The notes beneath the pieces were generated by a model that saw nothing but the letters and a program-made list of their open reading frames with translations, did no database searches and was not told the origin of the DNA. The position numbers and the translations under genes were made by a program. From Pseudofrankia coriaricola (lineage in GTDB: Bacteria; Actinomycetota; Actinomycetes; Frankiales; Frankiaceae): a DNA stretch of 64,000 nucleotides. Below, one piece after another: positions 9,829-24,234 of the stretch (positions are counted from its first letter, which is position 1; each line of letters starts with the position of its first letter). The stretch spans positions 62,001-126,000 of the forward strand of contig NZ_MBLO01000235.1 of NCBI RefSeq assembly GCF_001854805.1, in the 5' to 3' direction.

Positions 9829-10588
9829 CGATCCTCCTGGCGATCTACATCCCGCGCCTGCACAGGATGGGTGCCTGGCGGCGGGACGAGGCCGTCCGCC
9901 GCCGGGCGTAAGCCTCCCAGACGGCGTCCGAACCTGGGCCGGACGGCTACTCGTACTCCGTTCGCCCCGCGGCCATGATCGGTGTGGCGCCGTTCGTGAG
10001 CGGCCGGCTGTAGGGGGCTCGAACTCACGACCGGAAGATTGTGATAAAGATGCTCCGGAATTTCGGCATACATATGTTGGTGTTGTTGAATATCGTTCCA
10101 GATCGTTTTCGCCTGACGTACACGAGGACCTCGCGGATCGTGCTTCCTGACCCGAATCCTCCAGGAGGGAGAGGTCTCGTCGGCTGCTGAGAACTGGCAG
10201 GAGTGCGTTCGCTCGCTTCTTGTCGATGCCCGACTGATCTCGGTCGGAAGGGCTCTGGACATGCTCATCCTCGCGGAGTACGACCAGACGTCGTTCGACC
10301 CCGACTACCCGACTGAAGGGCCTCCGGGAATCACGCCGAGCTGTCGTAGCTGTGTGAGGACGTCGACGACTCCCCAGATCTCAGCTACCAACTGGCCTTC
10401 GGCCTGACCAACGTGACCAACCAACAGCGCCGCGCCCGCTACGCCTCCCGCCGCACCCGCCCAACCTGGCTACACATCGCGACACCAGACCAAGCGCGTC
10501 CCGTGACCACCTGATCACGGCTTCTAGCCAAATGCGAAGAGCCCCATATCTTCGGGACAGGGGGCCGAGACGCCTCGGTCGCGCGCTT
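9829..10588. other. intergenic region with relics
   Basis: 760 bp. GC falls locally around 10030-10130. It holds a tRNA-3'-end-like sequence at 10011-10056 and, on the plus strand from about 10140 to 10405, an open frame that reads like a real protein fragment (TRILQEGEVSSAAENWQECV, then LLVDARLISVGRALDMLIL) but has no start or upstream part and matches no family I recognise. Nothing else is supported. Confidence 0.45.
10011..10056 (-). other. tRNA 3'-end-like sequence, possible attachment-site relic
   Basis: Read on the minus strand it resembles anticodon arm to T-arm of a tRNA, with GGTCGTGAGTTCGAGCCCCC. The T-stem is imperfect (GTGAG against CCCCT) and no 5' half is present, so it is not a functional tRNA. 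A related sequence in the same orientation lies at 36068-36104. Tyrosine recombinases of mobile elements often leave such tRNA-end copies. Confidence 0.35.
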
Positions 10589-11626
10589 TCAGGAATCCTC
10601 GTCACCTCGGTCTTCGGGGGACCGCGCTTCGAGAACTCCGACGAAGGCCGAGGCGACGAGGGCGACAGCGGGGTCGTCGTCGTGGGCCAGTTGGCGCAGG
10701 ACGTCCCGCACGGTGGTCCCCGGCAGCTCGACCAGCGCCTGAGCGAGGCGTATTCGCACCGCGGAGTTTGCGGTGTGCGCGGCGAGTTCGTCGACCAGTG
10801 CGGTGATGATCCGGTCCGCGCACCCGGGATCCTGGGACAGCGTTCCCAGGGCCTCCGCCGCGTCGACGTCGCCTGCGCCCTCGACCACCATGCCGACGAG
10901 TGTCGGCACTGCCCCGGTCACACCACGCCTGCCCAACGCCAGAGCGGCGTGCCTGCGCACCGTCGTGTCCGGGTCCCCGAGCGCGTCCGCAAGCACCGTG
11001 GTCACACCCGGGGCCTCGGACATCTCGGCGATCGCCAGCACCGCGCGCCGCCGGATGTCGACGTCCTCCGAGTGCACGCCGGCGGCCAGCGTCGCCACGC
11101 CGTCGCCGCCCGATCGGGCGAGCGCCCAGCGCAGGGCGCCCGCGACGTTGGGGTCGGATTCGGCCAGGACCGCCCCGGCCAGCAGTTCGGCGGGAACCGA
11201 CACGCCCTCCGGCCGGGCCAGGACGGCCTGCTGCCTGCGCGCGGCGCTGGTCGAGTTGAGCCCCTGCATGAGTTCGACGATGCGCAGGACGCCCTGCCAG
11301 CCGGTGGGCGCCGACGCATCGATCGCGCGGAGCCGCTTGAGCAGCTCCTGTTCCCGCTCCAAGCGGTCTTCCGTCCACTGGATGAGGTCGCTGACCAGGG
11401 CGGACGGCGTGGAGGCCGGGTCCTCCAGCGCGCGCCCGATCTGCTTGAGCGAGAGCCCGAGGGACCGCAGGCTCTCCACGTGGAAGATCCTGCGGATGTC
11501 CTCGGCGGAGTACTCACGGTAGCCGCCGGCGGTGCGACCGCTCGGTCGCACCAGCCCGAGGGCGTCGTAGTGCCGAAGCATTCGGGTGCTCACCCCCGAG
11601 TGGCGGGCCACATCGCCGATCAGCAA
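10589..11626 (-). CDS. MerR-family regulator with C-terminal HEAT repeats
   Basis: 345 residues. MerR winged helix at 1-70 (IGDVARHSGVSTRMLRHYDA, LGLVRPSGRTAGGYREYS) and a dimerisation helix to about 105, then a HEAT/Armadillo-like repeat domain to the end (for example DPDTTVRRHAALALGRRG, SAVRIRLAQALVELPG) in place of the usual small effector pocket. The repeat domain suggests sensing by protein binding, possibly of the HEAT protein encoded just upstream. Its ATG overlaps the stop of that gene by 7 bp, so the two are coupled. Likely autoregulated through the dyad at 12460-12480. Confidence 0.9.
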   Translation of the reverse strand: MLIGDVARHSGVSTRMLRHYDALGLVRPSGRTAGGYREYSAEDIRRIFHVESLRSLGLSLKQIGRALEDPASTPSALVSDLIQWTEDRLEREQELLKRLRAIDASAPTGWQGVLRIVELMQGLNSTSAARRQQAVLARPEGVSVPAELLAGAVLAESDPNVAGALRWALARSGGDGVATLAAGVHSEDVDIRRRAVLAIAEMSEAPGVTTVLADALGDPDTTVRRHAALALGRRGVTGAVPTLVGMVVEGAGDVDAAEALGTLSQDPGCADRIITALVDELAAHTANSAVRIRLAQALVELPGTTVRDVLRQLAHDDDPAVALVASAFVGVLEARSPEDRGDEDS

Positions 11627-12450
11627 TCCGCGGTCTCCGCAGCCTTCGCGGCCTCCGTCGACTCGGTCGTCTCCGTGGGCTCGGCGGTCTCCGCGACGTC
11701 GGCAGTCTCCGTGGTCGCGGCAGTCCCCGAAGTCTCGGCGACTCTCGATGCAGCCGCGGCGGCGGCAGCAGCGGCTCGTTCCGGGCCGAGAGTGACGACT
11801 CGCTTCGCCTCGTCGATGGCCGCGTCAAAACCGCTCTCCGGGTCCTGCAGGAGCAACTCGGTGGCACGGGCGTGCGCGGCCACCGCCGGGTCGGGGTTCG
11901 CCGCGGCCTTCTCCAGGGCGGGCTCGATCACGTTGCCGAGGTCGACGAGGGCCCGGCTCAGGCTTAGCTGCACATTGCGGTCGCCGCGGCCGAGCTGCAC
12001 GACCAGTTCGTCGGCCAGGTCCTTCTTCTCGTCCTCGGGTACGAGGGCGACCGCGACACGCCACGCGGTCCGCGCGACCTCGTCGTCGGCGTCGCGCAGC
12101 ATGTCGCGCGTGATCCAGGCCCACGCGCGCTTGTCGCCGATCTTGGTGAGCGTGTGCAACGCCTGACTGCGGGCCTGAGTGCGCTCGGAGTCGAGTTCCT
12201 GGCGGATCCGGGGCAGGGTGATCTCCGGCGACAGGCGGGTCAGCGCCCAGGACAGCGTGTCTCGCACGAAGAAGTCCGGCTCGACCGCGCACCGCTCGAC
12301 GAGCGTCTCGAGAAGGCCGGCGTCCGGGTTCGAGCCGACCGCCAGAGCCGCCTGAAGCCGAACCGACGAGTCCTTGGCGCCCAGGGCGTTGGCCACGCGG
12401 GTGTTCTGCGGGGTTCCGTTTGCCGTGTTGATCGGGACCACCTCCTGCAC
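11620..12450 (-). CDS. HEAT-repeat protein
   Basis: About 276 residues from GTG 12450; GTG 12441 is an alternative, and the AGGAGG between them makes the exact start uncertain. HEAT repeats fill residues 10-200 (DSSVRLQAALAVGSNPDAG, FFVRDTLSWALTRL, VARTAWRVAVALVPEDEKKD). The last 60 residues are a low-complexity Ala/Thr/Glu tail. A scaffold or binding protein with no catalytic motif. First gene of the operon with the MerR-HEAT regulator; both share the repeat fold and may bind each other (inference). Confidence 0.82.
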   Translation of the reverse strand: MQEVVPINTANGTPQNTRVANALGAKDSSVRLQAALAVGSNPDAGLLETLVERCAVEPDFFVRDTLSWALTRLSPEITLPRIRQELDSERTQARSQALHTLTKIGDKRAWAWITRDMLRDADDEVARTAWRVAVALVPEDEKKDLADELVVQLGRGDRNVQLSLSRALVDLGNVIEPALEKAAANPDPAVAAHARATELLLQDPESGFDAAIDEAKRVVTLGPERAAAAAAAAASRVAETSGTAATTETADVAETAEPTETTESTEAAKAAETADC

Positions 12451-12459
12451 CCAGTGGAC

Positions 12460-12480
12460 ACCTTGACATTGTGTCAAGGT
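12460..12480 (-). promoter_or_regulatory. perfect dyad, MerR-type operator
   Basis: ACCTTGACA (12460-12468) and TGTCAAGGT (12472-12480) are exact complements around a 3-base centre. CTTGAC/GTCAAG half-sites with a short centre are typical of MerR-family operators, which lie between the -35 and -10 of the target promoter. It lies 10-30 bp before the HEAT gene start. Confidence 0.72.
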
Positions 12481-12499
12481 AAAGCACGTGACCGGCGAA

Positions 12500-12783
12500 T
12501 CAGGAGATCGTCCGGTCCACAAGGTAGGCCAACGCGAGCACCGGGACGCTCGCGTTGAAAGCGATCGTGCGCAGCAGCGCGCGGGCGCGCGACGGCGGGG
12601 CCGGTCGCCAGGCCAGGTCCTCCCCGCCGATCAGAGCCGCGTTGATCGGGAGGACCGCGGCGGTGACGACATCCTGGCCGTTGTGCCGTTCGGCCCGCTG
12701 CTTGGAGACGACAGTCAGCCCCAGGGCGCTCGGCTCGGCGCGCAGGTTCGCGATCGGGACGATCGTCGCGTTGCCGTCGCTGT
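12500..12783 (-). pseudogene. 3' fragment of an unidentified gene
   Basis: About 94 residues ending at a TGA (12500-12502) read as authentic protein with normal codon bias: ANLRAEPSALGLTVVSKQRA, then VVTAAVLPINAALIGGEDLAW and a hydrophobic C-terminal helix ASVPVLALAYLVD. Upstream the frame merges into antisense of the large kinase gene, whose reading is clearly the real one, so the 5' part is missing. I do not recognise the family. It looks like a gene cut by arrival of the kinase gene. Confidence 0.4.
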
Positions 12784-12839
12784 GATTGGGGGCAGACCGA
12801 ACAGGTGAGCTCGCCGGGACGATGCCGGGGGATTGGCGG

Positions 12840-15800
12840 ATGGGATTCAAGCGAACGACGCCGAGCCGGGATCCGCCGGCGGCGGTGACGCGGACGGAGC
12901 TGCTCCACGAGACAGAGCGGACTCGGGTGTCTCGACTGGTGTTCCCAGATGGAAGCGTGATCCGGAAGGAACCGCTGGGGCCGAACGCGCAGCGACGGTT
13001 GCGGCATGAGATCGACATCCTTGAGCGGCTGTCCGGGGTCGAGGGGGTCGTGCGACTGGCGGCTGGACGGCCGCCCTGCCAGGGGTCCGTCCTGCTCGAG
13101 GACCTCGGCGGCACCGTTCTGTCCGAGCGCGCCACCCCGCTGGATCCTGCCGAGCTGATCCGCCTGGCCGGGTCGCTTGCACGCGCCGTGGCGGGGATGC
13201 ACCGCCACGGCGTGGTGCATCGGAATATCAACCCAGCGAACATCGTCGTCAGCAGGGGCCAGGACGCACTTTGTCTGATCGACTTCGCTGTGGCTACGAC
13301 GTTCGTGACGGTCCGGCCAGGATTCATGCCATCCAAGGAGATTGTCGGGACGATCCCTTACCTCGCGCCGGAGCAGACCGGCCGGAGCGGTCGCCCGGTC
13401 GACCAGCGCGCCGATCTATACGCGGTCGGAGCCACCCTCTACGAGCTGGCAACCGGCGCGCCTCCGTTCGGCACCGGCGACCCCCTGCGGATCATTCATG
13501 ACCATCTCGCGCGGCTGCCGGCACCGCCGGCGGCGGTGAACCCAGCGGTCCCGGCCGCGCCGTCGGCGATCATCATGCATCTGCTTGAGAAGGAGCCGGA
13601 CGATCGATACCAGAGTGCCGACGGGCTGCTGCATGATCTGTTCCTGCTGCAGCGGGGAGCCACGGTGCTGCGTCCCGGCGAGCACGATTTCCCCTCGCGA
13701 CCGCTGTCGACGTCCCGGCTGGCCGGGCGTGACCGGGAAGTCGGCGAGCTGGGCGTTGTGTTCGCCGATGCGATGGCCGGCCGTTGCTGTGGGCTCCTAG
13801 TCGCCGGTGCGCCGGGGGTGGGTAAGACGTCCCTGGTCAACGAGCTGCGGCCGATCGTGGCCGGCAGCGACGGCTGGTTCGTGGCCGGCAAGTTCGACCA
13901 GTTTCGCCGCGACCAGGAGCACGACGCGATCCGACAGGCATTTCGCGCATTGGGTCGGCTGTTGCTGGCCGAACCGGAGGACAACTTGGCCGAGGTGCGG
14001 GACCGGATGCGTAGTGGATTGGGACCTAACGCCGGGCTGGCGGCCGCGGTCGTGCCCGAGGTCGCGACGTTGCTGAAGGTCCCCCCGGAGCCGGGCGATC
14101 CGATGACCGCGCAGGCCCGAGTATCACGCGCCGTGATCGCAATAATGCGTGCCGTCGCGTCCCGGAAACGGCCGGTCGTGTTGTTCCTCGACGACCTTCA
14201 GTGGGCCGGGCGGACACCGCTCGGCTTCGTCGACCTGATATTCGGCGGCGAAGAACAGATTGAGGGGCTGCTGCTCGTCGGCGCCTACAGGGAGCGCGGT
14301 GTGGACGCCGCCCACCCGCTCACGCGGATGCTCGCCCGGTGGCGTCGCCAGCCAGCCGGGCCGCACCATGTGTGGCTGGGTAGCCTCTCGCCACGGGGTC
14401 AGGCGGCTATGGTGGCCGACCTGCTACACCTGGCCCCGCGGCCTGCGGCCGAGCTGGCAGGGACGATCGCGCCAACCAGCGCGGGCAATCCGTACAACAC
14501 GCTGGAGTTGCTCAACACGCTGCGCCACGGCGGCGCGCTGGCCCCCAGCGAAAGCGGATGGCGATGGGACCGGGAGACGCTGCGCCGCCAGCTCGGCCGC
14601 ATGGACGTTACCGACCTGCTGGTCACCCGTACCTCCCTGTTGCCACCGGACACCAGGGAGGTGCTGGCGGTGATGGCGTGCCTGGCCGGTCAGGTGGAGC
14701 TGGATGTCCTGGAGGCCGCTACCGCGCTGCCAACCGACGATCTCTCCCGGCGGCTCGCCCCCGCGTTCGCCGATGGCCTGTTGGTGCTGGAGCCCGGCGA
14801 CCCGGCGAGCCTGCGGTTTCACCACGATCGGGCGCAGGAAAGCATACTGCGCGGCCTCACCTCGCAGACACAGCGCGCCACGCGGCTGCGCTTGGCCCGA
14901 CGCCTGGCTGGCCAACACGAGTTCTCCGTGGTTGCGGCGGAGCAGTACCTGCATGTGATCGACGCCGTGCACGCCGCTGAGGAGCGCCAGCTGGTGGTCA
15001 GGCTTTTCAAGCAGGCCGCGGACGAGGCAAAGCTGCTGAGCAACCACTCGCTGGTCGAAAGGTTCCTGGCCGCGGCAATTCCACTCGTCGATACGGCCGA
15101 CGTGGAACAACGGATCATGGTCCACACCGACCGGCACGCCGCCCTTTACGGCCTCGGCCGGCTGGAAGAGGCTGACGAGGAGTACCAAACCATCAGCAGG
15201 CTCTGCACTCACCCCGCGGAACGCACGGCCGCCACCGTCGTGCAGGTCAGCAGCCTCACCGATCAGGGCCGCCCCGCCGAGGCGGTACGGCTTGGCCTCG
15301 ACCAGTTGCGGCAGCTCGGTCTCGCCGCCCCCGACCGGGGCCACATCGACAAGGAGATAGACCGGAGGCTCGACGCGCTGTACCGATGGCTCGACGAGAC
15401 CAGCGAAGCCGACGATCGGCGACGACCGAGAATCGCTGACCGCTCGCGCCTGGGCACCATCAATCTCATCAACCGACTCATGGCCCCGGCGTTCTACTGC
15501 GACCAGACGATAATGGCCTGGCTGACCGTGGAGACGCTGGAGATGTGGACACGGTACGGCCCGGATCCCACCCTGCTCGGCCCCGCCGCTCATGCGGCGC
15601 TTGTTGTCACAGCTCGCAGGCACGACTACCGCACCGGGTACCGCATGATGCGGCGGATCCTCACGGTCGGCCGGGAACGCGGTTACGAGCCTGACGTATG
15701 GCGGGCGGAGTTTCTGTATTTGATGAGTGCCGGCCACTGGTTCGAATCGCTCGAGGAAAACGTCTCAGAGGCGCATCGCGCGCTGGAGGGCCTGATACAG

Positions 15801-17750
15801 GCCGGTGATCTGCAGAGCGCATGCTGGACCCACTACGTACTGATCTATAACCTCCTGGACTGCGCACCATCGCTTGGCGTGTTTGTCGCCGAGATCGACG
15901 AAGCATTGGCGTTCGCCAGGCGCACCGGCAACGGTCACGCGGAGGAGCTGTTCCTGCTATACCGCCAGCTGGCGAGGCTGCTGCGCGGCGAGGTCGCCGA
16001 GTCGGCGGCCGATGAGGCTGCCGTACTGGGCGGGCTGGCCGACAGCCCCTACGCCGCCGCCCGCCACATCACCCGGGCGCTTGCCGCGGCCATCCTCGAT
16101 GACCCGGTTGAGCTGGCCAGGCACATGACAGCCGTGACACCTCTGTTGCCGTACGTCGAGCCCATCTATGCGATGGCAAATGCGCACCTCCTACGGGCCT
16201 TGGCATTGGCTTGGCAGGCCCGCTCGGCCGAAACGGGTCGGCGTGGCTCCCTGTTGGCCGAGCTCGACAAGTCGATCGAATGGCTGGCCGCGCGCGCGGC
16301 CGACGCACCGGTTAACTTCTTGCACCTGCTGCGCCTGGTGAAGGCGGAACGGGCCTGGGCCGCCGGTGACTTCCAGGAGGCGGCTTATACGTACGACGTG
16401 GCACAGCGCGACGCCTCAGTACGAGTACGCCCGTGGCACCGCGCACTGATCCTTGAACGGTGTGCGCGGTTCTACCTTACATTTGGCATGGAGGAAGCCG
16501 GCAGTGCGATGCTCGCCGCCGCGCGCCGCGAATACCTGGCCTGGGGAGCGAACGCGAAGGTCAGTCAGCTAGACTGGGCCTTCCCGATGCTACGCGCCGA
16601 GCCCGCTGGTGCTGAGCCAGCGGCGCCGCCACCGGGGGAACCAGCAGTCTGCCGCTCCACCGTCACGACCGGCATCATCGATCTGCTCAGCATCGTCGCC
16701 GCTTCCCAGGCGCTCAGCTCCGAGACCAGCATCGAAGGTCTGCGGGCCAAGGTCGTAGGAATCCTGTCGGCGATGACTGGCGCCACCGGTGTCCATCTTC
16801 TGCTGAGCGACCAACAGGAATCCAGGTGGTCGATGCCCGCGGACGACGGTCGGATTCTCTCGCTCCCGGAAGCCAGCCAGCGGCGCCTGCTTCCAGCATC
16901 GGTCATCCGGTACGCAGAGCGTACCCGCGAACCCGTTGTCGTTGACGACGCCACCCATGACGACCGGTTCAACCGCGACCCCTACTTCGCCGACCCCGAG
17001 CGCTGCTCAATGCTCGCTGTTCCCATCATGACGCGGGGCCGACTGGGAGCGATGCTGCTGCTGGAGAACCGGATGATCCGGGGGGCCTTCTCCACGGAAC
17101 GCCTCGAAGGGATCATGCTCATCGCCGGGCAGCTAGCGGTCTCCCTCGACAACGCCCAGATCTATGCGTCGCTGGAACGCAAGGTCGCGGAGCGAACCCA
17201 GCAGCTCGCCGCCGCCAACCAGCGGCTGGAGCAGCTCTCGATTACCGATCCTCTGACAGGGCTGGCCAACCGGCGACGCCTTGACGAGGTCCTCAACGCC
17301 GAATGGTACCGGGCGACGCAGCCGGCGGCACCCATCGCACTGGCAATGATCGATATCGACCACTTCAAGCCCTATAACGACAACTTCGGACACACCGCCG
17401 GTGACCGGTGCCTTCAACGCGTCACCGCATGCCTTTCCAGGAACACCCGCGGCACCGACCTGGCCGCGCGGTACGGGGGCGAGGAGTTCGCGGTCGTGAT
17501 GCCCGGCGCCGAACTCGACATTGCCGCACGAATCGCCCACCGCCTGCGCTCCGCCGTCGAGGAGATGGCCGAACCACACCCGTTCACCGCCGAGCACGTC
17601 GTCACTGTGAGCGTCGGCGTCGCGAGCATCATTCCCACCCGCGGCGTGGGCCCCGCTGACCTGGTCGAACTTGCCGACGCCCAGCTATACCGGGCCAAGA
17701 GTAGCGGACGCAACCGGGTCGAGGTCGCACTTTCAACCCCATCACCATGA
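12840..17750 (+). CDS. giant signalling protein: kinase-like, AAA ATPase, TPR, GAF and GGDEF domains
   Basis: 1636 residues from ATG 12840 (GGGGGA 8 bases upstream; TTG 12786 and ATG 12822 also in frame). Order: protein-kinase-like domain about 20-275 with Lys43 and Glu57, but catalytic HRD is HRN (Asn129) and DFG is DFA (Asp148-Ala150); ATPase with Walker A GAPGVGKT (323-330) and Walker B FLDDLQW (Asp451); long TPR-like region; GAF about 1285-1430; short coiled coil; GGDEF domain with intact GGEEF (1546-1550) and inhibitory RxxD site (1537-1540). Predicted diguanylate cyclase whose kinase part may only bind. The architecture is known among MalT-like kinase hybrids. Stop overlaps an IS66 remnant by 4 bp. 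Confidence 0.9.
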   Translation: MGFKRTTPSRDPPAAVTRTELLHETERTRVSRLVFPDGSVIRKEPLGPNAQRRLRHEIDILERLSGVEGVVRLAAGRPPCQGSVLLEDLGGTVLSERATPLDPAELIRLAGSLARAVAGMHRHGVVHRNINPANIVVSRGQDALCLIDFAVATTFVTVRPGFMPSKEIVGTIPYLAPEQTGRSGRPVDQRADLYAVGATLYELATGAPPFGTGDPLRIIHDHLARLPAPPAAVNPAVPAAPSAIIMHLLEKEPDDRYQSADGLLHDLFLLQRGATVLRPGEHDFPSRPLSTSRLAGRDREVGELGVVFADAMAGRCCGLLVAGAPGVGKTSLVNELRPIVAGSDGWFVAGKFDQFRRDQEHDAIRQAFRALGRLLLAEPEDNLAEVRDRMRSGLGPNAGLAAAVVPEVATLLKVPPEPGDPMTAQARVSRAVIAIMRAVASRKRPVVLFLDDLQWAGRTPLGFVDLIFGGEEQIEGLLLVGAYRERGVDAAHPLTRMLARWRRQPAGPHHVWLGSLSPRGQAAMVADLLHLAPRPAAELAGTIAPTSAGNPYNTLELLNTLRHGGALAPSESGWRWDRETLRRQLGRMDVTDLLVTRTSLLPPDTREVLAVMACLAGQVELDVLEAATALPTDDLSRRLAPAFADGLLVLEPGDPASLRFHHDRAQESILRGLTSQTQRATRLRLARRLAGQHEFSVVAAEQYLHVIDAVHAAEERQLVVRLFKQAADEAKLLSNHSLVERFLAAAIPLVDTADVEQRIMVHTDRHAALYGLGRLEEADEEYQTISRLCTHPAERTAATVVQVSSLTDQGRPAEAVRLGLDQLRQLGLAAPDRGHIDKEIDRRLDALYRWLDETSEADDRRRPRIADRSRLGTINLINRLMAPAFYCDQTIMAWLTVETLEMWTRYGPDPTLLGPAAHAALVVTARRHDYRTGYRMMRRILTVGRERGYEPDVWRAEFLYLMSAGHWFESLEENVSEAHRALEGLIQAGDLQSACWTHYVLIYNLLDCAPSLGVFVAEIDEALAFARRTGNGHAEELFLLYRQLARLLRGEVAESAADEAAVLGGLADSPYAAARHITRALAAAILDDPVELARHMTAVTPLLPYVEPIYAMANAHLLRALALAWQARSAETGRRGSLLAELDKSIEWLAARAADAPVNFLHLLRLVKAERAWAAGDFQEAAYTYDVAQRDASVRVRPWHRALILERCARFYLTFGMEEAGSAMLAAARREYLAWGANAKVSQLDWAFPMLRAEPAGAEPAAPPPGEPAVCRSTVTTGIIDLLSIVAASQALSSETSIEGLRAKVVGILSAMTGATGVHLLLSDQQESRWSMPADDGRILSLPEASQRRLLPASVIRYAERTREPVVVDDATHDDRFNRDPYFADPERCSMLAVPIMTRGRLGAMLLLENRMIRGAFSTERLEGIMLIAGQLAVSLDNAQIYASLERKVAERTQQLAAANQRLEQLSITDPLTGLANRRRLDEVLNAEWYRATQPAAPIALAMIDIDHFKPYNDNFGHTAGDRCLQRVTACLSRNTRGTDLAARYGGEEFAVVMPGAELDIAARIAHRLRSAVEEMAEPHPFTAEHVVTVSVGVASIIPTRGVGPADLVELADAQLYRAKSSGRNRVEVALSTPSP

Positions 17751-18140
17751 CACGCACCGTTTCGGACGGGCTGGCCAAGCCCGAGCCGAGGTCGCTGCGG
17801 AGGAAGACCGGGCGCAGGCCGGGTGGGCAGGACGGGCATGACGGCTCGACGCTGAAGCTGGTCGACGACGGGGCCCGGACCGTCGTGCATGAGCCCGCGG
17901 TGTGCGGGGGCTGCGGGGATCCGCTGCTGGGCGCGCCGGTGACGCAGGTCGAGCGGCGGCAGGTGGTGGACCTGCCGCCGCTCGCCCCGCAGGTCGTCGA
18001 GCACCGGCTCGTCGAGCGGGAGTGTGCCTGCTGCGGCACCCGGACGCGGGCGGTGGCACCCGTCGGGGTGGCGTCCCGGTCCAGTACGGGCCGGGGGTCG
18101 AGGCGCTGGTTCTCTAACTCTACGGCGGCCAGTTCCTGAA
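17747..18140 (+). mobile_element. IS66-family transposase remnant
   Basis: The frame from 17747 reads the N-terminal part of an IS66 transposase: RRPGGQDGHDGSTL, the zinc-finger segment CGGCGDPLL...CACCGTRT and the linking VERRQVVDLPPL. Near 18085 the homology shifts frame (VQYGPGVEALVL), meets a TAA and continues as LYGGQFL, then ends; the catalytic DDE core is absent. No terminal inverted repeats found. A dead, truncated element at the very end of the kinase gene. Confidence 0.85.
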
Positions 18141-18215: not shown

Positions 18216-18575
18216 TTACGCGGATTCGAGCGTGTCCTTGGCGGCGAGGCGCTCGTGACGTCGTTTTCCCCACTCGCCCAGCGGGCGGAGGGCCTCGTTG
18301 AGTGACGTGCCGTGCTCGGTGAGGGAGTACTCGACCCGGGGTGGGACCTCGCGATACACCTCGCGGTGGACGAGGCCGTCCTCTTCCATCTCGCGCAGGT
18401 GCTGGATGAGCATCTTCTCGCTGACGCCGGGAAGGCCGCGCCGCAGCTCTCCGAACCGCCGGGCGCCGTGGTTGTTCAGCTCCCAGAGGATCAGCGACTT
18501 CCACTTCCCTGACACCACGTCCATACCGGCGTCGATGCCGCAGACGTATGGACCGCGCCTCGCGCTCGTCACCAT
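18216..18575 (-). CDS. HxlR-family regulator
   Basis: 119 residues from ATG 18575, with GGAGGG just upstream; longer in-frame starts lack a ribosome site. HxlR/DUF24 winged helix: IDAGMDVVSGKWKSLILWEL, RRFGELRRGLPGVSEKMLIQ, PPRVEYSLTEHG. Such regulators usually respond to aldehydes, quinones or oxidative stress. Divergent from the imine-reductase-like operon across 143 bp that contain a dyad, so it very likely controls those two reductases. Confidence 0.92.
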   Translation of the reverse strand: MVTSARRGPYVCGIDAGMDVVSGKWKSLILWELNNHGARRFGELRRGLPGVSEKMLIQHLREMEEDGLVHREVYREVPPRVEYSLTEHGTSLNEALRPLGEWGKRRHERLAAKDTLESA

Positions 18576-18613
18576 CAGACCCTCCACCTCGCCTAGCTGG
18601 ACACTCACTTCCG

Positions 18614-18646
18614 GGTAAGTATCGAACAAAATAGTAGGTACTTGCC
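18614..18646. promoter_or_regulatory. HxlR operator-like dyad between regulator and reductase operon
   Basis: GGTAAGTA (18614-18621) and TACTTGCC (18639-18646) are complementary with one mismatch, 17 bases apart, in an AT-rich stretch between the divergent starts. Position and symmetry fit an HxlR dimer site controlling both directions. Confidence 0.55.
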
Positions 18647-18718
18647 GGTGGGAAAGTTTAGCGGGGAGGGTCGGGACGGCACGCCAGTCAGACCACCGAG
18701 CGAAGCAAGGGACGATCC

Positions 18719-19588
18719 ATGACGACCCGTACGACCTTCCTGGGCCTGGGCGCGATGGGCAGCGCGCTCGCCGCCGCGGCTCTCGATGCCGGCCGACCCT
18801 CCGTGGTGTGGAACCGCACCCCGGGCAGAGCAGGGGCACTCGGCGAGCGTGGCGCCACCATTGCCGAGACCGTCGAGGAGGCGATCACCGGCGACGGACT
18901 GATCGTCGTGTGCCTGTTCGACCATCAGTCGGTGCACGCCGTGGTCGATCCGGTCGCCGCCAGCCTGGCCGGACGCACCGTGATCAATCTGACGACAACA
19001 ACACCGGACCAGGCCCGCGAGCTCGCGGCCTGGGCGACGGAGCACAGCATCACCTACCTGAACGGCGCGATCATGGCCGTACCTGAGATGATCAGGCGTC
19101 CGGGTGCGGCGATCTTCTACAGCGGCCCCGAGGCCGCCTTCGAGGAGAACCGGGAACTGCTCGATCTGTGGGGGCAGAGCGACTACTTCGGGACCGACCC
19201 CGGTATGGCCTCGCTGCGCGACCTGGCGATGCTCGTCGGGATGTACACGATGTTCGCCGGTTTTCTGCACGGCGCGGCGATGGTCGGTGTCGAGGGCGTG
19301 TCGGCGGCCGAGTTCGCCCGACGGCAGACACCTTTCCTCGCTGCCATGACCGGCCAGCTGGCCGGCCTCGCCGCCACAGTAGACGCCGAAGACTACGCCG
19401 GGGCGGGCCAGCAGAGCCTTGAGTTCACCGAAGCCGCACTGGCCTCGCTGGTGACGGCCAGCCTCGACCAGGGCGTCAATGTCGAGGTGCTGCGGCCCGT
19501 GCTTGACATCGTGCGCCGGCAGATCGCCGCCGGCTACGGCCGGCAGGGCACCGCCCGCATCTTCGAAGAGCTCAGGAAGGCCCGATGA
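18719..19588 (+). CDS. imine reductase-family NADP-dependent oxidoreductase, Asp type
   Basis: 289 residues. N-terminal Rossmann fold with FLGLGAMGSALA and the NADP-binding WNRTPGRA; helical C-terminal dimerisation domain. The segment TDPGMASLRDLAML puts Asp168 at the site that is Asp in the well-studied R-type imine reductases. These enzymes reduce cyclic imines, some catalyse reductive amination; physiological substrates are mostly unknown. It overlaps the next reductase gene by ATGA, so they are made together, under the divergent HxlR gene. A beta-hydroxyacid dehydrogenase role is less likely, because the catalytic Lys of that family is not in place. Confidence 0.85.
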   Translation: MTTRTTFLGLGAMGSALAAAALDAGRPSVVWNRTPGRAGALGERGATIAETVEEAITGDGLIVVCLFDHQSVHAVVDPVAASLAGRTVINLTTTTPDQARELAAWATEHSITYLNGAIMAVPEMIRRPGAAIFYSGPEAAFEENRELLDLWGQSDYFGTDPGMASLRDLAMLVGMYTMFAGFLHGAAMVGVEGVSAAEFARRQTPFLAAMTGQLAGLAATVDAEDYAGAGQQSLEFTEAALASLVTASLDQGVNVEVLRPVLDIVRRQIAAGYGRQGTARIFEELRKAR

Positions 19589-20493
19589 GCGGCGAGGGCG
19601 GTCTGTCCTCCGTGACGGTCATCGGCATTGGCCCGATGGGTCGAGCGATCGCCGCGTCCCTGCTGGGCTCCGGCCATCCGGTGACGGTGTGGAACCGCAC
19701 CGCGGGGCGCGCCGACGACCTCATCGCCAGGGGCGCGACGATGGCGCCCACACCGACAGCCGCGGTTGCCGCCAGCGAGCTGACCATCCTCAGCCTCACC
19801 GACTACCAGGCGATGTACGACATCCTCGGCCCGGTCGCCGAGAGTTCGCGACCCTCAGGTGTTCTTGCCGGCAAGGTCCTGGTCAATCTCAGTTCGGACA
19901 CGCCCGACGCCTCTCGGGATGCGGCGGAATGGGCGGCCGGACACGGAGCGAGCTTCGTGACAGGAGGCGTCATGGTTCCCGCTCCCGCCGTGGGCGGCCC
20001 TGGGGCACATGTGTTCTACAGCGGGCCCCGTGCGGTGTTCGACGTACACGAACCGACGCTCAGACTGATCGGCGAGCCCAGGTACCTCGGGGAGGACCCA
20101 GGCCTGGCCCAGCTCTTCTACCAGGCGTACCTCGACGTCTTCCTCACCGCTCTGTCAAGCCTGCTCCACGCCACCGCGCTCGTCACCGCCGCCGGTGTCC
20201 CGGCCGCCGACTTCCTACCCGGCGCGCTGAACTCCCTCACCGACATCCCGACGATGATCGGAGACGGACGGGACCTGGCCCGGCGCCTGGAGGCCGGCGA
20301 ACACCCCGGCGACCTCAGCACGGCGCGGATGATGGGCGCCACAGCGAACCACATCGTGTGGACGAGTGAGAAGGCCGGCATCGACACCCGGCTACCCAAA
20401 GCCGTCAAGGCGCACTACGACCGGGCCGTCACCGCGGGCCGCGGCACCGAGAACTGGACCGTTCTCTACGAGATACTCAAGGCTGGTGGCTGA
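19585..20493 (+). CDS. imine reductase-family NADP-dependent oxidoreductase, Tyr type
   Basis: 302 residues, the same fold as its neighbour: VIGIGPMGRAIA, WNRTAGRADD, then EDPGLAQLFYQAYLDVF. Tyr179 occupies the position that is Asp168 in the first enzyme; Tyr here is typical of the S-type group. The start ATG overlaps the previous stop by 4 bp, so equal expression is expected. Sequence identity between the two is modest, so they are old paralogues or independently recruited, not a recent duplication. They could form a heterodimer, as the fold dimerises by swapping helices (inference). Confidence 0.85.
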   Translation: MSGEGGLSSVTVIGIGPMGRAIAASLLGSGHPVTVWNRTAGRADDLIARGATMAPTPTAAVAASELTILSLTDYQAMYDILGPVAESSRPSGVLAGKVLVNLSSDTPDASRDAAEWAAGHGASFVTGGVMVPAPAVGGPGAHVFYSGPRAVFDVHEPTLRLIGEPRYLGEDPGLAQLFYQAYLDVFLTALSSLLHATALVTAAGVPAADFLPGALNSLTDIPTMIGDGRDLARRLEAGEHPGDLSTARMMGATANHIVWTSEKAGIDTRLPKAVKAHYDRAVTAGRGTENWTVLYEILKAGG

Positions 20494-22802: not shown

Positions 22803-23978
22803 TTACAGGCAGGAGTAGAGTGCCGCCTCGAAGTCGACATAGGTCTTCCACGCCTCGTGTTCAGAGATGAACGGTAGCGAATTGGTGTAGATCGAGGCGC
22901 ACACTCCCGTCGTACGGTCGACAAAGAAGTGGGTGTTGAACAGGCCGGCCCAGGCACCCGTGCCGGCCCGTCGCCGCCCGGGCACGTCCTGGGTGTTCAG
23001 CAACAGGCCGTAGCCCCACTTCCAGCCCGGTCCGACCCGCAACGCGTCGGTGATCGGTGGGTCGGCGCTCGGGATCTCGGCCGGAAAGTCGATGTCACCG
23101 ATCTGGTTGGCGAACGCCGCGTCGACCGTTTCCTGGCGAAGTATCCTTTCCCCGTCCAGCTCTCCGCCCCGTAACAGCGCGCGCTCCAACTGGACGTAGT
23201 CCCGCGGCGTCGAGTACAAGCCGTGGCCCCCGGCCCACCAGTCCGGATTCTGGTTCAGGATCTCGCCGGCTGAACTCCACGTACCGTCGTCGCCTTTGAC
23301 ATGAACCGTGACGCAGTTGGCGGTACGCGCTTCGTCCAATCGAAACATCGTGTCGTTCATCCCGAGCGGACCGGTCACCCCCTCCTTGATTACCACGTCG
23401 AGAGTTTTGCCCGCGACCGCTTCCACGACCTTGCCCAACCAGTCGGTGTTGATGCCGTACACGAATTCGGTTCCCGGATCGGCCACCAGCGGGGCCTTGA
23501 ACGCCTCCGCCGAGCCTGGGACCACGTTGGGCACCCCAGTCACCTTCTCGAAGCGAACCAGGTCGGCGTTCCAGAACCAGTAGCCTAACCCAGAGGTATG
23601 AGTAATCAATTGCTTCACCGTGGCCCGGCCGCGGGCGGCGCGGAGCTTCGGAGTATCCCCGTCGAAACCCTCCAACACCCTCACGTCAGCGAACTGTGGA
23701 CAGTAGGTGTCGACGGGCGCGTCCAACTCCAGCTCACCTCGCTCCATCTGCTGCAGCGCGGCCGTGGTACACACCATCTTGGTCATCGACATGATGCGGA
23801 AATGAGTCGCAGTGGTTACCGGGTCATGGTTCTCACCTACAATCCGGACCCCCGCTCCACCCTCGTAGATGATCCCGTCCCGATCAGCCGCGATCGCCGC
23901 CACATGCGGAACAACGCCCGTGGCGACAGCGTCCTTCAGAACCTTGTCAATGGCGGAACCGTCGATCGCAGTACCCAT
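22803..23978 (-). CDS. serine hydrolase, class C beta-lactamase/EstB-like esterase
   Basis: 391 residues from ATG 23978, which has GGAGG 8 bases upstream. Beta-lactamase fold: SMTK (Ser64, Lys67) is the SxxK catalytic pair and Tyr174 in FVYGINTD the general base; HTSG (127-130) and GLYSTPRDY are conserved in EstB-type esterases. No signal peptide, so it acts in the cytosol as an esterase, not a penicillin-degrading enzyme. Shares strand and direction with the HSL esterase 145 bp downstream. Confidence 0.9.
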   Translation of the reverse strand: MGTAIDGSAIDKVLKDAVATGVVPHVAAIAADRDGIIYEGGAGVRIVGENHDPVTTATHFRIMSMTKMVCTTAALQQMERGELELDAPVDTYCPQFADVRVLEGFDGDTPKLRAARGRATVKQLITHTSGLGYWFWNADLVRFEKVTGVPNVVPGSAEAFKAPLVADPGTEFVYGINTDWLGKVVEAVAGKTLDVVIKEGVTGPLGMNDTMFRLDEARTANCVTVHVKGDDGTWSSAGEILNQNPDWWAGGHGLYSTPRDYVQLERALLRGGELDGERILRQETVDAAFANQIGDIDFPAEIPSADPPITDALRVGPGWKWGYGLLLNTQDVPGRRRAGTGAWAGLFNTHFFVDRTTGVCASIYTNSLPFISEHEAWKTYVDFEAALYSCL

Positions 23979-24234
23979 CCTGACCTCCGGCGGTCGTAAC
24001 ATCGCGACATGCGCAACATTGGCGCGCCGGGTCAGTTTTCCTAAGTGCGCGAGCTGCCGTTACCGACGATTATTCGCAGATCCGTCGCCTGGATCCGCCA
24101 ATTGGCGGATGCTGCTGCGCCGACACGGCAACGTGGCGCTATCACATTGACCGGATGTCGTAGCCACCTGGTCGCAGGCAGTCGCTGCGCGACGCCCGCG
24201 TTCTGGCGCACGAGATCGGCCGCGAGCGCGCTGA

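Follow-up and report, generated by a model that had tools for sequence, protein, structure and literature searches.

According to excerpts of PMC6120462, (S)-selective imine reductases (IREDs) have Pro139 and Phe194, (R)-selective ones have Val, Thr or Ile together with Met or Leu, and these two positions predict selectivity better than the active-site Asp or Tyr does. The IRED of the reductasporine pathway is described in excerpts of PMC10851217 as capturing reactive intermediates. For the HxlR/DUF24 regulators, excerpts of PMC7835342 report that in other DUF24 proteins a Cys equivalent to the one discussed below acts as the sensor of electrophiles or oxidants, and that the HxlR of Bacillus subtilis works as an activator by means of a formaldehyde bridge between Cys and Lys. 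Here, we describe a cassette that combines an HxlR-type regulator gene with two IRED genes, termed A (the first) and B (the second), on a 64-kb stretch of Pseudofrankia coriaricola (contig NZ_MBLO01000235.1, positions 62,001 to 126,000). This whole stretch is the window, and all coordinates below refer to it. The HxlR-IRED-IRED architecture itself is established at the level of sequence. As to its function, we tentatively favor, at somewhat less than an even chance, a self-contained, horizontally transferred and probably thiol-sensing module that would reduce imine or iminium electrophiles.

The HxlR gene lies divergent from A and B, which are co-directional and overlapping among the open reading frames of the window. 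A (18719-19588, plus strand) encodes 289 amino acids and B (19585-20493, plus strand) encodes 302, with the stop of A and the start of B sharing an ATGA (19585-19588, plus strand). Direct reading and Pfam domains thus find two adjacent, overlapping IRED-fold genes where the preliminary description had placed them. The RedAm-like_C domain scores 99.3 bits in A and 158.2 bits in B (cut-off 27), NAD_binding_2 exceeds its cut-off in both, and the GxGxxG cofactor motif is complete (GLGAMG in A and GIGPMG in B). Among solved structures, the closest in sequence to A is 7wnn (E 5.9e-76) and the closest to B is 6jit (E 6.2e-107). By domains and phylogeny, A and B are NADPH-type IREDs that are coupled to each other and belong to separate clades. 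It had been claimed that Asp168 of A and Tyr179 of B occupy one key position. They do share a single column in two alignments, rather than lying at different sites. The Asp168 codon (GAC, 19220-19222, plus strand) corresponds to site 187 of Streptomyces kanamyceticus Q1EQE0, and the Tyr179 codon (TAC, 20119-20121, plus strand) falls in the same column. The surrounding motifs, LRDLAMLVGMYT in A and LFYQAYLDVFLT in B, match the flanking motifs given in Table 1 of PMC6120462 (excerpt). By alignment to positions 139 and 194, and following the rule in the same excerpts, A is R-type with Val121 and Met175 (class DVM) and B is S-type with Pro132 and Phe186 (class YPF). We therefore retain the prediction that the two enzymes have opposite stereoselectivity, although its firmer basis is the contrast at 139/194 (Pro/Phe versus Val/Thr/Ile and Met) rather than Asp versus Tyr.

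R-marked and S-marked IREDs are paired in many other genomes. We scanned contigs with an alignment of 12 A-type proteins and took the best 80 of 595 matched stretches as our main locus set, counting a divergent HxlR when it was within 400 bp of an IRED. A divergent HxlR was present at 71 of these 80 loci. Tandem IRED pairs occurred at 25 of 80, always with an HxlR, so the coupled pair is not peculiar to the window. All 25 pairs join an R-marked to an S-marked partner. Because the A-type query fixes the R-marked member, it is the S-marked partner that is informative. Twenty pairs have an R-marked Asp type followed by Tyr-P-F, four have an R-marked Asp type followed by Asp-P-F, and one has the reverse order; together they span 13 genera, 7 families, 6 orders and 2 classes. 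A 4-nucleotide overlap can be read in 22 of the 25 tandem loci, with the caveat that the start nearest the first stop was chosen, which favors overlaps. Ratios of nonsynonymous to synonymous substitution (dN/dS) between the window and its relatives were 0.23 to 0.41 for A (four comparisons), 0.20 to 0.31 for B (five comparisons) and 0.13 to 0.23 for HxlR (five comparisons). Given these values and the recurrence at 25 of 80 loci, the HxlR-A-B arrangement is beyond chance.

Adding further distinct pairs (L074-L076, L078-L083, L092, L226, L227 and L235) brought R-like plus S-like combinations to 36 of 38 complete pairs. The two exceptions, L082 (two Tyr types) and L083 (two R types), each consist of sister rows and come from the same genome (G305). 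At L092 and L235, the S-like member bears only one S mark, having Phe194 but Ser or Ala at 139. These two loci also present a further active-site variant, a Glu-type (E-V-L) IRED in tandem with a Tyr-type. The pair count leaves out L077 and L106, where the second IRED match is partial, and L094, where R- and S-marked IREDs are 650 bp apart; at L149, the second gene is split over frames. Searching from the S side, we obtained 16 B-like loci outside Frankiaceae, comprising 4 tandem pairs (one of them L092 again), 7 HxlR-S singles and 5 others. Asp versus Tyr was considered as the defining contrast and rejected, as Asp+Asp pairs account for 4 of the 25 and for five more (L074, L075, L076, L078 and L079). 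Since these are still R-marked plus S-marked, it is the R/S marks that are constant across pairs.

In a quick maximum-likelihood tree of 119 rows, 53 rows form an S-like clade (support 97) and 61 form an R-like clade (support 86), with three D-T-M rows outside both. Save for L082 and L083, pairs join members of the two clades, and they do so in several subclade combinations. The 44-row R clade is combined with Tyr-P-F and, in Mycolicibacterium and G146, with Asp-P-F; the 7wnn side of the R-like rows is combined with Asp-P-F (L074-L078); and L092 is a further case. Changes between tandem and single states number at least 11 on R-like rows and at least 6 on S-like rows, counts that do not separate gains from losses. 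Pairs have therefore formed, broken up or both on repeated occasions. Outside Actinomycetota, Sorangium cellulosum So ce26 (Myxococcota, L141) has an HxlR, an A-type IRED and the operator described below, which points to horizontal transfer.

The association with HxlR extends beyond the main locus set. In a class-wide search, at least 68 of 246 genomes had a RedAm-like_C protein. We took 60 loci from among the matches listed, 12 of them picked for closely spaced IREDs; among the remaining 48, a divergent HxlR was found at 23, including 19 of the 42 single-IRED loci new to the survey. The frequency differed by IRED type (D-V-M 12/17, D-P-F 8/10, D-T-M 1/8 and Y-P-F 0/4). When we started from HxlR instead and searched 396 genomes of the phylum, each of the 11 matches at E<=1e-37 adjoined an IRED. 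The genome of the window (11.2 Mb) has 22 HxlR-like genes, the second closest being 45% identical, and from this density we estimate that chance HxlR-IRED adjacency would be well under 1%. None of the eight other NAD_binding_2 loci in this genome has an HxlR within ~1.5 kb.

The regulator gene (18216-18575, minus strand; Pfam HxlR 114.7 bits, cut-off 20.8) encodes 119 amino acids. Close orthologues differ by 1-nucleotide indels upstream of the ATG at 18575-18573, which makes this ATG the most likely start. The sole Cys of the protein, Cys12 in the motif CGIDA (codon at 18540-18542, minus strand, by direct reading), is present in 120 of 120 distinct IRED-linked HxlR rows (151 loci, with the reference row of the window included), usually in the context CG[IL]DA. 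In 89 of the 120 rows there is no other Cys, as scored over the domain and up to 12 upstream residues. The residue at +2 after the Cys is I, L, V, M or T in all 120 rows and Lys in none. By sequence, the HxlR of the module belongs to a distinct HxlR subfamily. Thiol sensing is likely, by analogy, given the invariance of Cys12 and the Cys-based sensing reported for the family. Formaldehyde induction through the B. subtilis bridge was considered and rejected as the same mechanism, since with no Lys at +2 this bridge cannot form in the same way. Formaldehyde may still act as an inducer by another route.

Between HxlR and A lies a putative operator, GGTAAGTATCGAACAAAATAGTAGGTACTTG (18614-18644, no strand assigned). 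The core GGTrAGTAytGAACAAAATwGTAGGTACTTG is conserved across Frankiaceae and in the Nocardia carnea-like genome G064. Expectation-maximization over 116 distinct HxlR-IRED intergenic regions gave a 31-bp consensus, GGTgAGTAcCgcACTAAATAGTgGGTACTTG, of 34.6 bits with imperfect dyads centered near position 17. The log-likelihood was 2254, against 79 to 97 in five mononucleotide shuffles, a difference that is not a probability because the sequences are related. Sites of at least 10 bits are present in 107 of the 116 regions. The nine regions below 10 bits are those of seven single D-P-F genes (L035, L086, L088, L089, L091, L095 and L102) together with L082 and L150; the HxlRs of the single D-P-F subgroup probably read another site. 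The operator dyad noted in the preliminary description is therefore real and conserved, in Frankiaceae, in G064 and in these 107 regions. Across 12 genomes, a 26-nucleotide core allowing up to 3 mismatches was found once in 10, twice in G008 and not at all in G025, always at an HxlR-IRED cassette, with zero matches for a reversed-pattern control; the genome of the window has a single match, between HxlR and A. Given this restriction, the regulator appears to serve this unit alone. HxlR control of A and B, as originally proposed, is supported as a prediction by a divergent gene and by a conserved dyad, correctly positioned in the intergenic region, to which HxlR is predicted to bind.

The module is patchily carried among Frankiaceae, and its A gene has decayed repeatedly. 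B (at least 77% identity) was found in 11 of 35 Frankiaceae genomes searched, and HxlR, A and B occur together in six (G000, G004, G017, G020, G023 and G027), with the first 15 residues of B unmatched in G017. Frankiaceae HxlR orthologues are 92 to 94% identical to that of the window. In G008, HxlR-A and HxlR-B are on separate contigs, and the HxlR-B locus (L060) retains the leader of A and its first codons, from which we infer that A was deleted there. Judged by these remnants, the G008 arrangement is complementary loss after duplication. A is broken or remnant beside B in 4 of the 11 carriers: it is frameshifted in G012, cut to an in-frame 131-codon remnant in G016, reduced to its end in G025 (where a single in-frame TGA lies in B and the locus showed no HxlR) and a mere trace of its start beside HxlR-B in G031. 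Together with G008, these states indicate that B can be kept without A.

Over ~2.3 kb, the cassette of the window shares 88 to 92% nucleotide identity with those of the five other intact carriers, and the flanks are mostly unalignable among Frankiaceae carriers. Exceptions are a 1.95-kb segment of G017 that corresponds to window positions 10570-12510 and weaker matches between G004 and G008, G012 and G027, and G050 and the window. The 10570-12510 segment contains a pair of neighboring HEAT-repeat genes, of which one has a MerR domain. In G017, it is directly beside the cassette; in the window, ~5.7 kb separates the two, occupied by a gene for a 1654-amino acid protein combining protein kinase, AAA ATPase, GAF and GGDEF domains (12786-17750) and by an IS66 transposase zinc-finger remnant (34.1 bits, 17747-18139) that directly adjoins the HxlR end of the cassette. 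At 22806-24002, there is a beta-lactamase-fold protein whose nearest models are methyl acetate hydrolase AcmB, with a score under their cut-off.

We found no third gene traveling with the unit: across 154 loci, the largest neighbor family was seen at 9 (crude gene caller, 3 to 10 kb of context). This makes an independent protective or scavenging function more likely than participation in one set pathway. Among 72,556 plasmid records, A-like proteins were found on 26, all at less than 60% identity, so there is no close plasmid copy. As for an anti-phage role, neither HxlR nor A nor B had a PADLOC match.

How might such a module work? A thiol-reactive electrophile would modify Cys12 of HxlR, as family knowledge suggests, and this modification would change the hold of HxlR on the operator, whether it acts as a repressor or as an activator. 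A and B would then be made from one coupled message and act as separate homodimers. With NADPH, they would reduce the C=N bond of imine or iminium electrophiles arising outside the cell or from side reactions, and together would reach either face and accept more varied shapes. A broader proposal is possible but more doubtful. It holds that this is a widespread actinobacterial stress module, that its one-Cys HxlR responds to electrophilic imines or iminium ions by inducing two stereo-complementary IREDs, which reduce these compounds from either face, that this represents a general natural role of canonical IREDs, and that the R+S pairing was assembled more than once. Several observations count against the favored electrophile-reducing module. 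An R-type IRED is without a partner at 55 of the 80 loci, the module is missing from most genomes (in addition to the 11 of 35 Frankiaceae with B, 18 of 78 relatives have an A-like protein at E<=1e-40), A decays repeatedly in genus-6 Frankiaceae, and the HxlRs of the single-gene S-type (D-P-F) subgroup lack this operator. Moreover, the Cys, scored here in IRED-linked rows, may be a common feature of DUF24 proteins and need not be a mark of electrophile sensing. Given the patchy presence and the repeated decay of A, any benefit of the module would be conditional.

Other explanations of the pairing have to be weighed against this. The preliminary description had suggested a heterodimer. On this view, A and B would form a mixed domain-swapped dimer whose active sites draw on one chain of each kind, which would explain the coupled message. 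IREDs are described as domain-swapped dimers (PMC6120462, excerpt), the overlap is readable in 22 of 25 pairs, and pair members belong to different clades, all of which would suit it. However, HxlR is commonly found with A alone (for example, L136 and L141), an S-type alone with HxlR accounts for 7 of the 16 B-like loci outside Frankiaceae, A is broken (G012 and G016) or remnant (G025 and G031) beside B, the two genes sit at separate HxlR loci in G008, and both clades show the repeated tandem/single changes given above. As each gene also occurs alone, an obligate heterodimer is disfavored, and we regard the heterodimer as quite improbable; this part of the earlier interpretation is therefore not favored, while HxlR control, the shared site and the predicted opposite stereochemistry are supported. 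Production of the two enzymes in equal amounts, which the preliminary description had also assumed, does not follow from the sequence. A division of labor by substrate size, with the pair covering small versus bulky substrates rather than two enantiofaces, is unlikely. D-type IREDs do accept sterically demanding imines poorly (PMC6120462, excerpt), but the Asp+Asp pairs keep one R-marked and one S-marked member, making the stereo mark the constant contrast. Note that this division overlaps with the favored electrophile-reducing module and is not independent of it; both may hold.

Two IREDs under one private regulator could instead serve a dedicated pathway that makes or degrades one natural amine or alkaloid and in which they catalyze two consecutive or diastereomer-specific reactions, and RedE of reductasporine biosynthesis is a precedent for an IRED with a defined pathway role (PMC10851217, excerpt). 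We consider this unlikely, as no shared pathway genes adjoin the unit across the 154 loci, the flanks differ between Frankiaceae carriers, and the taxonomic spread is broad and patchy and includes single-gene versions. It is very improbable that A and B run in the opposite direction, dehydrogenating amines with opposite enantiospecificity so that racemic amines can be used. Enzyme reversibility would allow opposite facial types together to consume both enantiomers, but no amine transporter or downstream catabolic gene recurs beside the unit, and the family is known for the reducing direction (PMC6120462 and PMC10851217, excerpts). Equally improbable is that A and B are beta-hydroxyacid dehydrogenases (beta-HADs) or other dehydrogenases of the same fold, a concern raised at the outset. 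Both do have NAD_binding_2, and several beta-HAD models match far under their cut-offs (equivalog models at 27 to 49 bits versus cut-offs of 271 to 451). RedAm-like_C, however, is over its cut-off in both, and Asp or Tyr replaces the catalytic Lys of beta-HADs, which occurs in 7 of 118 alignment rows, including the own-genome controls L001 and L005. Imine reduction is the activity predicted for A and B.

The enzymes and the regulator are of known kinds, whereas the private operator and the recurrent R+S pairing look new; among the papers listed from the open-licence literature of PubMed Central, we found none on HxlR-linked IREDs. A unit that recurs in many soil actinobacteria offers a concrete handle on the natural job of IREDs. 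The private regulator and its one conserved operator make it possible to look for inducers with a promoter reporter, and an inducer should in turn hint at the substrate. In addition, the R+S pairing supplies ready-made stereo-complementary enzyme pairs for biocatalysis, in which the feature kept is 139/194 and not Asp/Tyr.

Comparison with known systems, as represented in the excerpts cited above, places the module as follows. B. subtilis HxlR shares with the module HxlR its Pfam family and the conserved N-terminal Cys, but has Cys-x-Lys and formaldehyde fixation targets (PMC7835342), whereas the module HxlR has no Lys at +2 and has IREDs as its predicted targets. RedE shares the IRED fold and the active-site Asp with A and handles reactive, oxidation-prone intermediates; it belongs to a biosynthetic gene cluster (PMC10851217), while the HxlR-IRED module has no recurrent neighbor. 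IRED-G of Streptomyces rimosus (L8EIW6), Asp-type yet (S)-selective, has the same D,P,F pattern as the second gene of the Mycolicibacterium-type tandem pairs (PMC6120462), and the B of the window differs from it in being Tyr-type. The actinobacterial IREDs and reductive aminases (7wnn from Actinoalloteichus hymeniacidonis, 6jit and the PMC6120462 set) share with A and B the fold domains, GxGxxG, Asp or Tyr at 187 and R- or S-type residues at 139/194, and in the tree A falls on the 7wnn side and B with 6jit. These characterized IREDs are described as isolated biocatalysts, whereas here the opposite types are joined in one coupled operon with a private regulator and a putative operator of its own.

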